Below, one piece after another: positions 12,158-25,036 of a stretch of 25,525 bases of DNA. The notes beneath the pieces were generated by a model that saw nothing but the letters and a program-made list of their open reading frames with translations, was not told the origin of the DNA and ran no database searches. Within the stretch, counting starts at the first letter, position 1, and each line of letters starts with the position of its first letter. The stretch covers positions 1 through 25,525 of IMG/VR virus record IMGVR_UViG_3300045999_003294; one strand, given 5' to 3'. The stretch comes from a virus. The position numbers were made by a program, and so were the translations under genes.

Positions 12158-12345
12158 AGCGCAGCGCGGGCGTAGGCTCCGGTTGCATTATAGCCGTTGT
12201 ATTCATCCTCGGCGTAACGGGTCAGAGCAGTTTCCATCACCGCCACGCGGGCGCGCAGCCGCTCGATCTCGGTAGCGGCCTCCTCCATATCGGACTCGGT
12301 CGGCTCCGCGTCCAATCGCAATCTCTTCACGATGTCCGCGCTCAT
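12142..12345 (-). CDS. Small coiled-coil hypothetical protein
   Basis: 67 aa. The central part (DMEEAATEIERLRARVAVMETAL) is a short coiled coil, a plan shared by many small phage early proteins whose function is unknown. The C-terminus AALEAKP ends in the same AKP-stop as the upstream neighbour, because the two genes share a 16-bp junction sequence. ATGA overlap with the gene before; strong GGAGG Shine-Dalgarno. Confidence 0.7.
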   Translation of the reverse strand: MSADIVKRLRLDAEPTESDMEEAATEIERLRARVAVMETALTRYAEDEYNGYNATGAYARAALEAKP

Positions 12346-12357
12346 GGCTTGGCCTCC
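12342..12357. repeat. 16-bp gene-junction repeat, copy 2
   Basis: Second copy of 12142-12157, at the junction of the Ala/Tyr-repeat gene and the 67-aa coiled-coil gene. Confidence 0.88.
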
Positions 12358-12842
12358 CTCATCTCGCGGCAGATGCGCCGCAATTCATCGGCTTGCGCGG
12401 CGCATTCGGCGAAACGACCTACATAAACCGACCTCTCAGCCGCATACGCCGTCGCATACGCCGCCGCATACGCCGTCGCATACGCCGTCGCAGCCGCAGC
12501 CCACGCTGTAGCCTCGCCCGACCGCGCCGCCTCCAACTCCTCGTCGCTCGCCTCGCCGCGAGCATGGCGCTCGGCGACATCGAGGGCGGCGATGGAGCGC
12601 GCGCCGACCATCAGATGCTGGACGCGTCGCGCGCACCAGACCGCATAAAGCCGGATCTCGCGGTCGCAGCCCTCGACGGCTCGCAGGCACCAGAGCGCGT
12701 TGCTCAGACTGTTGCAGTCGAGGATCTGGTCAATCCACAGCGGCTCATCGTCAGCCTGGGTCTTGCCCAGGCCACGCAGCAGCTTCTCCCAACCGTCGCG
12801 GCAGGGGCTGTGCTCGCGGATCTTGTTGAGGGTGGTTTTCAT
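12342..12842 (-). CDS. Phage protein with Ala/Tyr repeat (function unknown)
   Basis: 166 aa. The N-terminal half has a recognisable conserved core: LSNALWCLRAVEG, EIRLYAVWCARRVQHLM and SIAALDVAERHARGEASDEEL. This core occurs in many phage hypothetical proteins. The C-terminal half is a helical low-complexity stretch built on TAYATAYAAAYATAYA (about 119-134), followed by a charged helix. The repeat is encoded by a 12-bp tandem array. No enzyme motif is visible. It sits in the leftward operon with ATGA junctions on both sides. Confidence 0.72.
   Translation of the reverse strand: MKTTLNKIREHSPCRDGWEKLLRGLGKTQADDEPLWIDQILDCNSLSNALWCLRAVEGCDREIRLYAVWCARRVQHLMVGARSIAALDVAERHARGEASDEELEAARSGEATAWAAAATAYATAYAAAYATAYAAERSVYVGRFAECAAQADELRRICREMREAKP
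12441..12488. repeat. 12-bp tandem repeat, 4 copies, coding
   Basis: Four units of CGCATACGCCG(T/C) in a row. They encode the Ala/Tyr/Thr repeat of the overlapping minus-strand gene in frame, so unit number can change without frameshift. Confidence 0.9.
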
Positions 12843-13015: not shown

Positions 13016-13170
13016 CGAAACCCTCCCACCAGGACCACGGTCGCCACCACGCCCGCGAGCAGCATGGCGATGGCAATCCAATATCGCCGCGCTCCGCTGC
13101 GCGGGCGGGTCTCCTCGATCCAGCCAAAGGCGAGGCCGGAACGGGCGAGGTCGTCGTTGCGGTCGGTCAT
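13012..13170 (-). CDS. Small single-TM protein
   Basis: 52 aa, start ATG at 13170 and stop at 13012-13014, with ATGA overlaps on both sides. A charged N-terminus (MTDRNDDLARSG) is followed by a basic patch (RPRSGARR) and one clear membrane segment (about residues 30-50, YWIAIAMLLAGVVATVVLVG). Predicted orientation is N-terminus in the cytoplasm. No function is recognised; superinfection control or membrane modulation is possible but unsupported. Confidence 0.65.
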   Translation of the reverse strand: MTDRNDDLARSGLAFGWIEETRPRSGARRYWIAIAMLLAGVVATVVLVGGFR

Positions 13171-14021
13171 TGCACGGGCTCCAGGTTCAGATGGCGACGG
13201 ACGATGGCGCGATAGCGATCAATCGGCATGGCATCGCTCCAGCGGATCGTTTTCGCGGCGCTGTTGGCCGGATCGAACGCATACATGCTCCGAAAGAACC
13301 GCTGCACTTCCAAGCTACCGCCGCTGCTGGCGAGGCCAGGGTCGGTCAGTTGCCGATAGAGCGCCGCCGTCAACGTCGAGAAGGTCACGAAATCGGCGCG
13401 ACACATCGCGAGATACTGGCCCCGCATGAAGTCGGCGTGCTCAGGCCATTCAAGCATCGCCGCGCATATCGCTGCGCGCGCCGCGCCGGACGCCATTGCG
13501 CGTATGTGTCCGCGCGATGCCTCATTGATCTCAATCGCGACTTTGCATAGCGGCGATGTCGATATCCTCTCTCGATCTCTGATGCCTGGGACGGTTCGAT
13601 TGGTCGAGTCGCTCATGCGATATGCGGCGGTCAACGTAATCTTGACGCGATCGGGCAGCGGCGCGAACGCAAGGACGCCTCGAGGTATGCCGCTGTCGAT
13701 GGCGAGCTTGACGCGCGGATCTGCTCCGAGCATCACGATCATTTCGACCGTCTTGCCCGACTCGACCACCGCGTGCAGCCTATGCTGGCCGTCGATCAGA
13801 TCGCCGTCGCTGCACACCCTGACGGCGTCCCCAGTGAGCAGCCACTCTCCCGCCGTCATCATCTCCGCGTAACGGATGATCGCGTTGCGCCTGATGTTGC
13901 GATTGTTGCGGTTGCGGCTCAACAGCGTCTGAGCAACGCTTGGGGCGATCTCATACATTGCGATCTGAAGCGGGCGTCCTGCGCGCTCCCAGCGGTCGAT
14001 GGTCTCTGTCGTCAGCTTCAT
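13167..14021 (-). CDS. ParB/Srx-fold phage protein
   Basis: 284 aa from the ATG at 14021 (ATGA overlap with the previous gene). The region GEWLLTGDAVRVCSDGDLI followed by DGQHRLHAVVESG (77-89) is the ParB/sulfiredoxin-like core, where DGQHR matches the nucleotide-binding motif. A helical C-terminal part follows, with several conserved-looking Trp and Arg residues. Many phages encode such stand-alone ParB-fold proteins, with roles ranging from nuclease to CTP/ATP-dependent binding, and the role here is unknown. No ParA or centromere-like array is beside it, so plasmid-type partition is not indicated. Confidence 0.75.
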   Translation of the reverse strand: MKLTTETIDRWERAGRPLQIAMYEIAPSVAQTLLSRNRNNRNIRRNAIIRYAEMMTAGEWLLTGDAVRVCSDGDLIDGQHRLHAVVESGKTVEMIVMLGADPRVKLAIDSGIPRGVLAFAPLPDRVKITLTAAYRMSDSTNRTVPGIRDRERISTSPLCKVAIEINEASRGHIRAMASGAARAAICAAMLEWPEHADFMRGQYLAMCRADFVTFSTLTAALYRQLTDPGLASSGGSLEVQRFFRSMYAFDPANSAAKTIRWSDAMPIDRYRAIVRRHLNLEPVQ

Positions 14022-14254
14022 TTTGCGTCTCCCTTCTGCGCCGCGCGGCGCGCGGCCTGTTGACGCTCGCTCTGGCACTCTTGCCAGATGAGCCGAATAT
14101 GCGCCGGCAGCATCTGCCGGATGGTCGCCGCGTGCTGTAAGCACTCGGCGCGGGTCTCGGCGGGGATCTCGACGCCGCCGCAGTGGCGATCGACGTCGTG
14201 CTGGCCGGTGCAGATGACCCCCAACATGACCCACGGTGTCAGCCCAGCAGCCAT
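14018..14254 (-). CDS. Small His/Cys-containing hypothetical protein
   Basis: 78 aa from the ATG at 14254. It has an N-terminal hydrophobic run (MAAGLTPWVMLGVICTG), then HDVDRHCGGVEIP and CLQHAATIRQMLPAHIRLIWQECQ. The His and Cys pairs could bind a metal, but no known zinc-finger spacing is seen. The start overlaps the tiny membrane ORF upstream by 16 bases; the stop overlaps the ParB-fold start. Confidence 0.58.
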   Translation of the reverse strand: MAAGLTPWVMLGVICTGQHDVDRHCGGVEIPAETRAECLQHAATIRQMLPAHIRLIWQECQSERQQAARRAAQKGDAK

Positions 14255-22264: not shown

Positions 22265-24292
22265 ATGGCAGATCTCAGATCAATTCTCGGCGGCTCATGG
22301 TCGCCGCCCAAAGAGCGAACGCCGGAGCCGCCGGAGCAGCAGCTGCGCGACGCGATGGCGGCAGCGGGCATAGCGCCACCGGCAGCAATTCACCTCGATG
22401 GAACGCTTCATCGGTTCGTCAGCGGGGCGAAGGGGCGACCGGGCGCGGGCGATAAATCCGGCTGGTACATCGCGTTCGGCGACGGCATCCCCGCCGGTCG
22501 GTTCGGCTGTTGGCGCGCGGGCATCGAGCATTCATGGCGTGCCGACATCGGGCGCACGGTGACAGCGGTCGAGGAGATGGCTCACGCGCGCCGGATGGCC
22601 GAGGCCATTGCGGCTCGCGACGCGGATCGTCAACGGACGCGCGAGACAGCCGCCGACACTGTCGCGGCGATCTGGGAAGGATGCGGACCCGCCGCGCCAG
22701 CCCATCCGTATCTCGCTCGCAAGAGTGTCCAGCCACACGGCGCGCGGGTCACGGGCGACGGGCGTCTGGTGGTCCCGCTCTATCAGCCGGACGGCGATCT
22801 GGTCTCGCTCCAGTACATCGCGGCGGACGGCCAGAAGCTCTATCATCCCGGCGGTCAGGCCGGTGGATCGTGCTGGTGGATTGGCGATCTGGAGGCCGAT
22901 AGCGGGCCGATCTATCTGGCCGAGGGCTTCGCGACCGCTGCCACAATCTACGAGGTGGCCGACAGGCCGGTGGTCGTGGCCTACAGCGCATCGAACCTGG
23001 TCCCGGTCGCCGGGAGCCTTCGGGCGCGTTTCCCGGCTCGCGAGATGGTGATCGTGGCCGACCACGACGCCAGCGGCGTGGGGCAACGGTACGCCGAGCA
23101 AGCGGCGGCAAAGCACGGCGCTCGGGTGGTGGTTCCGCCGATACCCGGCGACGCCAACGATTACCGCGCGGCTGGTCACGACCTCGCGGCGCTCCTCAAC
23201 CCGCCGGCAGACGGCTGGCTCATCCCTGCGGACGAGTTCAGCGCGCAGCCATCCCCGATCCGATGGCTGGTGCGCGGGTGGCTCCAGGCCGAGAGCCTCC
23301 TCATGGTTCACGGGCCGTCCGGAGGTGGCAAAACGTTCGTCGTCCTCGACTGGTCGCTGACGCTCGCGGCAGGGCGGGAAATCTGGCGACAGGCGCGTGT
23401 GAAGCCTGGGCCGGTCGTCTATCTGGCTGGCGAGGGCCACGCGGGCCTACGGGCCAGAATAGCGGCGTGGAAACAGCATCACGGCGTCGAGCGTCTGGAC
23501 ATGTGGCTGTCCCGAGATGGCCTGGACCTCAACACGCCGGATGGGTATCGGCGGACCGCCGAGGCCATCCGCGCTCTGGACCGCCGGCCTGTCCTGATCG
23601 TCGTTGATACGCTGCACCGGTTCCTCGCGGGCGACGAGAACTCGGCGCAGGACGCCAAGTCCATGCTCGACGCATGTGCGCGGCTTATGACGGAGTTCGG
23701 ATGCTCGGTGCTCCTCGTCCATCACACCGGCGTCATGGAAGAGGCTCAGCACCGGGCGCGCGGGTCGAGCGCCTGGCGCGGGGCGCTGGACATCGAGATC
23801 TCCGTGGTGCCCGCCAAGGGGCAGGATCCGATCCAGATCGTCCAGCGCAAGAGCAAGGACGCCGAGCTAACTGTCCCGGCATACGCGCGGCTTGAGCAGG
23901 TGCCCATCGCCGGGTGGACTGATGAGGACGGCCAGCCGGTCGGCAGCGCGGTGGCCGTCGAGGCGGATGCGCCGGTCGAGCGGCCAAAGATCGATCATGC
24001 CCTGGCCGATAAACGTCAGACATTCGAGAATGCGTGGTGGGCGAGCGGGGCCGAAGAACGCGACGGAGCGCCATATCTGTCGCGGTCTGCATTGATCGAA
24101 TATCTGATGGCCAGCGAGGACATGTCAGAGGCAAGCGCGGAGCAAGTCGTTAAGCCGAAGGCGAAAGGACGGCTCATCTGTAAGTTGCTGGAGGCCTCAT
24201 TCATCAGGGCCGAGGAGCATGGATGGGCGGTCATGGATCCGGTCCATGCAACAGTAATGATGATTAAAAGACAGGACAAATCCAACAGGTAA
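22265..24292 (+). CDS. Toprim primase / RepA-like helicase fusion
   Basis: 675 aa from the ATG at 22265 with AGGAG 6 bases upstream; the frame is open further back but only over the opposing gene. An N-terminal part (about 1-200) with AHPYLARKSVQPHG and VPLYQPDGDLVSLQYI resembles phage P4-like primases. A Toprim domain follows: AEGFATAATI (about 217-228) and IVADHDASG (about 263-271). The C-terminal helicase has Walker A GPSGGGKT (about 349-356) and Walker B VLIVVDTLHRF (about 443). It should prime and unwind phage DNA. A weak promoter (TTGCAA at 22213-22218) may serve it. The stop TAA is already inside the GTAAC array. Confidence 0.9.
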   Translation: MADLRSILGGSWSPPKERTPEPPEQQLRDAMAAAGIAPPAAIHLDGTLHRFVSGAKGRPGAGDKSGWYIAFGDGIPAGRFGCWRAGIEHSWRADIGRTVTAVEEMAHARRMAEAIAARDADRQRTRETAADTVAAIWEGCGPAAPAHPYLARKSVQPHGARVTGDGRLVVPLYQPDGDLVSLQYIAADGQKLYHPGGQAGGSCWWIGDLEADSGPIYLAEGFATAATIYEVADRPVVVAYSASNLVPVAGSLRARFPAREMVIVADHDASGVGQRYAEQAAAKHGARVVVPPIPGDANDYRAAGHDLAALLNPPADGWLIPADEFSAQPSPIRWLVRGWLQAESLLMVHGPSGGGKTFVVLDWSLTLAAGREIWRQARVKPGPVVYLAGEGHAGLRARIAAWKQHHGVERLDMWLSRDGLDLNTPDGYRRTAEAIRALDRRPVLIVVDTLHRFLAGDENSAQDAKSMLDACARLMTEFGCSVLLVHHTGVMEEAQHRARGSSAWRGALDIEISVVPAKGQDPIQIVQRKSKDAELTVPAYARLEQVPIAGWTDEDGQPVGSAVAVEADAPVERPKIDHALADKRQTFENAWWASGAEERDGAPYLSRSALIEYLMASEDMSEASAEQVVKPKAKGRLICKLLEASFIRAEEHGWAVMDPVHATVMMIKRQDKSNR

Positions 24293-24396
24293 CAGGGTAA
24301 CGGTAACGTAACGGAGGGTAACCCGTTACGGGTGGCAAAGGCAGCAGTCGGGTAACGTAACGTAACGGGGTTCTTTAGAACCCGTTACGGCGTTAC
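24289..24396. repeat. GTAAC array, iteron-like (11 motifs)
   Basis: GTAAC occurs at 24289, 24297, 24303, 24308, 24318, 24352, 24357 and 24362, and its complement GTTAC at 24325, 24384 and 24392. Several copies are in 5-bp tandem, always followed by G or C. The block lies right after the primase/helicase gene. Candidate replication origin, regulator-binding site, or packaging-related site. Confidence 0.8.
24361..24389. other. Strong hairpin inside the GTAAC array
   Basis: CGTAAC-(G)-GGGTTC pairs with GAACCC-GTTACG around a TTTA loop: 12 bp with one bulged G. No T-run follows, so it is not a standard terminator for the primase gene, though it may slow transcription or extrude as a cruciform. 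Confidence 0.72.
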
Positions 24397-24463
24397 CCCT
24401 GATGCGCGACGAAACGCTAAAATACAATGCACTTATAAGTTGAGATCCGAGGAGATCGTGGAC

Positions 24464-25036
24464 ATGCCAAGTTCAGCCCGCTCACTCCGCACCAGTGGTC
24501 GGAAAAACCGCCCTGGCGTCGATCCTGCCGAGCCGGTCATCCCGCCGACACAGGAACGCGCGCGACACGCCGAGCACGGCATCGAGGTCGCCGAGCCCGA
24601 GCGGACCGAGCGAGGCGGTGGCAGGGCGTACACCGACGCTCAGGGGCGTGCGTCGAGGCCGTGGAGGGTCGTCGATACGCTGGCGGCGATGGAGAGGGCA
24701 GGCACGATAGACGGCGAGCAGCGGGCAGTTGGCGAAAGGTTTAGGGCGCTGTTTGAGATCTCGGGGCGGGCGGGGGCGAGCGCGACCAGGATCGAGCCTC
24801 GGTCGGGCGGCGGCGATCAGGCATCCGCCATCGAGCGGCGCGTGGCCGCAGGACGGGCGCTGGCCGAGGCGGCGCAGCTGCTCGGCGGGCCGGGGCCACT
24901 GCATAGCATCGTCGTGGAGGTCGTCGGGCTCGGCATGTCCTGCTCGGCCTGGGATCGGGTCCGCCGTTGCCGGGAGGGCCGAGCGTCGGCCATGCTGGCC
25001 CAGGCGCTCGGCATCCTGGCGGCGGAATGGCGATGA
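24464..25036 (+). CDS. DUF6456-like putative regulator
   Basis: 190 aa from the ATG at 24464, with GAGGAG upstream; an in-frame GTG at 24458 is closer to that site. The N-terminal 80 residues are disordered, rich in Arg, Pro and Glu. The C-terminal half (DTLAAMERAGTIDGEQRAVGERF shown in part, then AIERRVAAGRALAEAAQLLG and VVEVVGLGMSCSAWDRVRR) follows the DUF6456 pattern, with a possible HTH at the end. Small proteins of this type precede terminase genes in alphaproteobacterial prophages and may control late genes. AT-rich sequence before it (TAAAAT, TACAAT, TATAAG at 24418-24439) could hold a promoter. Confidence 0.62.
   Translation: MPSSARSLRTSGRKNRPGVDPAEPVIPPTQERARHAEHGIEVAEPERTERGGGRAYTDAQGRASRPWRVVDTLAAMERAGTIDGEQRAVGERFRALFEISGRAGASATRIEPRSGGGDQASAIERRVAAGRALAEAAQLLGGPGPLHSIVVEVVGLGMSCSAWDRVRRCREGRASAMLAQALGILAAEWR

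Follow-up and report, generated by a model that had tools for sequence, protein, structure and literature searches.

In the phage/satellite P4, the alpha protein unites a primase of the Toprim type with a helicase, and its C-terminal winged helix, part of the same polypeptide, binds the repeats of the origin (PMC4234260). In the Rep-ori modules of SaPIs and PICIs, the C-terminal domain of the initiator helicase reads short iterons, two sets of which immediately follow the gene for that helicase, and SCCmec (Cch2) employs iterons of 5 nt (PMC7581432, PMC6092414). RSF1010 harbors iterons together with the hairpins ssiA and ssiB, where priming starts (PMC4234260). For the RepA_N-ori modules of PLEs and the ICP1 nuclease Odn, origin and DNA-binding domain vary in concert, with repeated swaps of the domain, and escape from this origin-targeting phage nuclease is documented (PMC8263062). 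In geminiviruses, the arrangement of the iterons near a stem-loop is conserved while their letters are virus-specific, and a short region of Rep changes in step with them (PMC10653810).

The window considered here, a 25.5 kb (25,525 nucleotides) virus record from IMG/VR, harbors a dense array of GTAAC motifs behind a gene for a primase-helicase. The reading proposed for this stretch (24289-24396), to which a probability of about 0.85 is given on the basis of sequence comparison, is that of an iteron-type replication origin to which the primase-helicase would bind with its own C-terminal domain, the domain and the array being exchanged together as a cassette. The relevant features are the following.

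22265-24292, plus strand: primase-helicase gene, 675 aa, with Toprim_3 (residues 216-302), a RepA-like AAA_25 helicase (321-490), and a C-terminal winged helix, assigned with Pfam/PHROGs and AlphaFold
23987-24289, plus strand: C-terminal domain (residues about 575-675), a predicted winged helix (AF2) and the proposed reader of the array
24143-24145, plus strand: codon of Q627, in the predicted recognition helix (622-629)
24161-24166, plus strand: codons of A633 and K634, in the loop after the predicted recognition helix
24289-24396 (108 bases): GTAAC array with 11 GTAAC/GTTAC sites
24289-24329, plus strand: left iteron set, with direct GTAAC at 24289, 24297, 24303, 24308, and 24318 and an inverted copy at 24325
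24334-24345, plus strand: conserved spacer GGCAAAGGCAGC between the left and right iteron sets
24352-24366, plus strand: direct part of the right iteron set, three tandem GTAAC units with a 5-bp period
24362-24388, plus strand: hairpin with a TTTA loop, GTAACGGGGTTC-TTTA-GAACCCGTTAC, in the right iteron set
24384-24396, minus strand: inverted part of the right iteron set, two copies at 24384 and 24392
24464-25036, plus strand: 190-aa neighbor, phrog_21451 of unknown function, outside the proposed mechanism

As an origin, the array would work like those of P4 alpha or the SaPI Rep proteins and belongs to neither family. The P4 alpha-type architecture is present: one chain combines a Toprim-type primase and a helicase with a predicted C-terminal winged helix. 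In contrast to P4 alpha, the helicase is of the RepA-like AAA_25 type, the gene is immediately followed by the repeats, which surround a hairpin, and about 19 motif types occur; a Pfam scan of the primase-helicase finds AAA_25 instead of a D5/SF3-type domain. The position of the array and its two iteron sets are shared with the SaPI/PICI Rep-ori modules, and reading by the C-terminal domain is suggested here by covariation. However, the proteins of SaPI/PICI and SCCmec Cch2 are DUF927 or D5/Primase_Cterm helicases, none of which is found by the Pfam scan in the primase-helicase, whereas Toprim and AAA_25 are combined here in tailed phages. A GGCAAA spacer and a hairpin are found where the SaPI/PICI origins have an AT-rich middle.

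A RepA-type hexameric helicase, iterons, and hairpins are common to this locus and the RSF1010 RepA/RepB′/RepC system, and RSF1010 RepA (1g8y) is the nearest solved structure for the helicase domain (residues 324-504, E 7e-13). In RSF1010, three separate proteins share the work and RepC binds the iterons, whereas recognition, helicase, and primase are fused here; RepC is not found in a Pfam scan of the proteins submitted, and a plasmid search returns no full-length relative. PLEs differ in being satellites with iterons of ~30 bp and two origin types, as opposed to phages with 5-6 bp motifs of ~19 types. The geminivirus Rep is a rolling-circle endonuclease of ssDNA plant viruses and is an unrelated protein.

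An earlier, sequence-only reading of the window had reported eleven motifs within 108 bases, the primase stop codon within the first of them, and two tandem runs of 5-bp units. The recount agrees on each point. Eleven of the 17 GTAAC/GTTAC sites on both strands of the window lie inside 24289-24396, three of them inverted and eight direct; the first GTAAC includes the stop codon TAA (24290-24292); and the tandem runs occupy 24303-24312 (two units) and 24352-24366 (three units). Against the 17 sites of the window, shuffles of it contain a mean of 9.4. When the letters of the array are shuffled within it, GTAAC occurs 2.0 times on average and at most 7 times in 1000 trials, compared with the 11 observed. 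The further claim that this motif density is unmatched in the window holds for GTAAC but is not significant as a test of any 5-mer; in dinucleotide shuffles, the densest 5-mer reaches 12.5 copies within 108 bases on average. Density by itself is insufficient as proof in this GC-rich window, and it is the layout kept in relatives that is decisive for the reality of the array.

An Rfam search gives no match. Occurrences of GGTAACGTAACGTAACG in bacterial genomes, at 15 scattered places, all lack the array layout and are regarded as chance matches; the layout is also missing around the matches in the viral contigs L075, L076, and L081. A TIGR-Tas array, considered since the TIGR-Tas paper names the phage CGphi29, was rejected, and the box C/D spacer architecture is not seen.

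In viral contigs, 71 close relatives of the primase-helicase are found; a profile search extends the number to several hundred, with more than 500 loci matched. In most of the 71, an array with the same layout and different motif letters is located at the same place behind the stop codon, and the layout is also present in 98 labelled members. Conservation in related phages, suggested earlier as a check, is found in about 100 relatives, all with the layout behind the primase-helicase. The layout begins with a left set of copies; after a GGCAAA spacer come direct copies, two or three in number, then a small hairpin with an A/T loop and two inverted copies. Relative to the hairpin center, as located by an automatic search that mis-centered a few hairpins, the left set spans roughly −84 to −56, its inverted copy lying near −48, the direct copies are at about −22, −16, and −12, and the inverted copies are at +10 and +18. 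A GGCAAA-like spacer about 42 nt to the left of the center is present in most arrays and with several motif types. The left-set positions are common to different motif types, and the hairpin-centered offsets are alike in GGTAAC, CGTACC, CGGACC, CGGAAC, GGGAAC, and GGTACA arrays. With the commonest 6-mer of an array taken as its type, approximately 19 types are distinguished, including GGTAAC, CGTACC, CGGACC, CGGAAC, and GGGTCA. Cultured phages with an array are Salicola CGphi29 (GGGGACA), Idiomarinaceae 1N2-2 (CGGTACA), and Alteromonas XX1924 and PB15 (GGTTCA); the array is located at about 24.4 kb in XX1924 and about 7.2 kb in CGphi29.

The hairpin of the window had been described as a 12-bp stem with two motifs as its outer part. 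The outer motif pair does belong to the stem, but the latter comprises 11 pairs and one bulged G. Folded as single-stranded DNA, the right half of the array has an energy of −18.8 kcal/mol (z −4.9). Of 89 arrays, 54% contain a stem of at least 7 with a 3-4 nt A/T loop, compared with 0.4% of shuffles, and, as judged from these arrays, the hairpin structure is conserved while its letters change.

No array is found behind the primase-helicase gene in L149, L159, L161, L162, L164, L166, L167, L169, and L171-L175. This array-less clade (L149, L159, L171-L175, and others) has a different recognition region with no KPS-type loop, and those of its loci that were scanned harbor no strong 6-mer cluster; the origin must be elsewhere or of another kind. 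A separate case is L109 (on the same contig as L207), which has a Q627/VP-type domain, yet no array behind the stop. Its downstream sequence looks unrelated, possibly reflecting an assembly chimera or a rearranged genome.

A winged-helix fold is predicted for the C-terminal domain. Its AF2 model has a mean pLDDT of 85, and the same winged helix appears in the full-length model. The elements are a helix (578-593), a strand (602-606), and three helices (607-617, 622-629, and 637-643), followed by two strands (647-650 and 653-656) and a helix (659-673). Fold matches in the PDB are weak (best E 0.058), with winged-helix DNA binders making up most of the top hits, namely PcaR, the MCM C-terminus, STIV F93, PrfA, and CRP; profile searches of Pfam and the PDB with the domain alone give nothing convincing. 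The proteins encoded at 22265 and 24464 had both been named as possible binders, and the former is the better candidate by virtue of this domain, while the latter is not supported.

MW202867 (L266, MW202867.1, 1375-3267) encodes a Prim-Pol + PriCT_1 + AAA_25 protein in which Prim-Pol replaces Toprim. AAA_25 and the C-terminal domain are kept, and the gene is followed by a GGGACA array that has the same layout. This replacement of the primase indicates that the array is tied to the helicase and the C-terminal domain rather than to the Toprim part. A small Cro-like regulator gene directly precedes the primase-helicase gene in CGphi29, 1N2-2, XX1924, PB15, and MW202867; none is recognized in the window.

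It is proposed that the C-terminal winged helix of the primase-helicase encoded upstream binds the ~5-6 bp motifs, such that origin recognition, helicase, and primase would be united on one polypeptide. Two helicase hexamers could plausibly be seated at the two iteron sets, whose copy numbers in the window are six and five; the reasoning from about six motifs per set parallels the proposal for SaPI Rep. The hairpin in the right set would plausibly be extruded or exposed on opening of the duplex and, by analogy with the ssi hairpins of RSF1010, may serve as the first priming site. The cassette changes by recombination, with breakpoints around codon 575 and close to the array end, and by a few substitutions (627, 633, and 634) plus a matching change of the motif copies.

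The sequence-only reading had offered an origin or a site for a replication protein, which is now backed by the layout in about 100 relatives, by covariation with the C-terminal domain, and by DnaA boxes at part of the arrays; nothing here favors its other suggestion, a site for a late-control protein. Around the arrays of 24 members, within 4.4% of the length, fall 57 of the 78 copies of the consensus DnaA box TTATCCACA, at fixed offsets from the stop (e.g., +6, +18, and +196). Direct reading of the window's own array reveals no exact DnaA box; such boxes are a frequent but not a universal feature of iteron-type origins. In the window, CGphi29, and XX1924, the GC-skew minima are located about 2 kb away from the array, at the divergent gene junction, and are confounded by gene direction.

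Alternatively, the C-terminal domain could bind the array for autoregulation of the replication genes or for partition, with replication starting elsewhere. Covariation speaks for recognition and not for function, and arrays of sites can serve regulation. Such a role is nevertheless unlikely, given that the array lies behind the gene and not at its promoter, that no promoter-like or terminator-like site is found in 24100-24700, that DnaA boxes flank the arrays in the 24 members, and that the proposed binder is fused to a replicative helicase and primase.

Recognition of the array by the C-terminal domain is suggested by the manner in which the two vary together. When the primase-helicase is divided into a body (before about residue 560) and a C-terminal part (the last ~100 residues), pairs with bodies at least 98% identical have a mean C-terminal identity of 96% if they share a motif and 41% if they do not. 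In the latter, the last ~100 residues are usually just 34-47% identical (window/L011, L047/L049, and L111/L129). Among 80 representatives, same-motif pairs have a residual C-terminal identity of +0.109 after body identity is accounted for, a value that 0 of 2000 label permutations reach. Motif changes number 36 on the body tree and 25 on the C-terminal tree, compared with at least 54 for shuffled labels. The repeats covary with the DNA-binding domain of the candidate initiator.

The boundaries of the exchanged segment are visible in the DNA. Identity drops at about −300 nt from the stop and is back at about +60 to +100 (window/L011) or about +300 (L047/L049), which are the array ends. Both boundaries are seen in window/L011, window/L177, and L047/L049, and the left one also in L111/L129. 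This drop and recovery around the array indicate that domain and array were transferred as a unit, with both flanks left in place. The C-terminal domain and the array behave as an exchangeable specificity cassette.

The C-terminal domain adjoins the array, and linked exchange alone would give some covariation. It could be argued that domain and motif covary merely as recombining neighbors while something else binds the array, and the exchanges do run from near codon 575 to near the array end, as for a linked block. This possibility, which is quite improbable, can be weighed with the individual residues. Among domain pairs 70-98.5% identical (with a similar outcome for representatives only), residue 627 differs in 67% of the pairs that switch motif and in none (0/131) of those that keep it, although these domains differ by up to 30%. 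The corresponding values are 99% versus 18% for residue 634 and 82% versus 19% for residue 633, and the next-best column after these three has 73% versus 40%. At 633-634, SA occurs with CGTACC and YP with CGGACC in two backgrounds; the same word CGTACC is reached with different residues in L011/L012.

The recognition region of L108 (GGTAAC) differs from that of L118/L123/L125/L110 (CGGAAC) only by Q627V and a change of SP to AT, that is, at three residues between L108 and L123. In an alignment of held-out loci, Q627 accompanies GTAAC in 17/17 and V627 accompanies GGAAC in 15/15, so that prediction from Q or V at 627 succeeds in 32/32, while three members have other residues; these sequences are related to each other and the counts are not independent events. 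Well supported branches hold 1-4 independent switches per contrast, all concordant and not significant alone. Furthermore, the right flank, which is equally linked, is conserved in L011. Linked exchange leaves the concentration at three residues and the L108/L123 case unexplained.

A packaging (pac/cos) site or a transcription terminator is a still less probable identity for the array. An HNH endonuclease gene is close on the right, terminase genes lie downstream in CGphi29 and XX1924, and a hairpin is present. However, no T tract follows 3′ of the hairpin and there is no terminator-like match, and the array tracks a domain of the primase-helicase, which has no known packaging role.

Binding by the 190-aa neighbor, suggested earlier and attractive for its adjacency and its assignment to a family of unknown function, is hardly credible, as its identity to the window copy does not track the motif (96.9% in L011, across the 127 aa that are present, and 91% in L012, both with another motif, versus merely 87.8% in the same-motif L007) and as, among the loci fetched, it is found only in the window's immediate clade and is missing from other array-bearing clades. 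Elsewhere in the window, a 166-aa protein (12342-12842, minus strand) contains an Ala-Tyr-Ala-Thr repeat encoded by a 12-bp tandem repeat (12441-12492) and has no NCBIfam match. A 287-aa protein (13167-14030, minus strand) shows, by eye, a ParB-like DGQHRLHA motif and has no match in Pfam or NCBIfam.

The iteron-type reading places a probable origin in a large family of tailed phages, both cultured and uncultured, for which no origin study was found. The ~19 natural origin words with matching DNA-binding domains make a residue-to-base code of the winged helix directly testable. Tentatively, and with somewhat less than even odds, the family may represent a natural set of mutually incompatible phage origin types, in which the winged helix would read its 5-6 bp word by a simple code of residues 627, 633, and 634, and the type would be changed by a cassette swap or a few substitutions, under pressure from competitors, satellites, or nucleases directed at the origin word. 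It thereby becomes testable whether phages vary their origins to evade parasites or competitors, as is the case for PLE satellites and the phage nuclease Odn.
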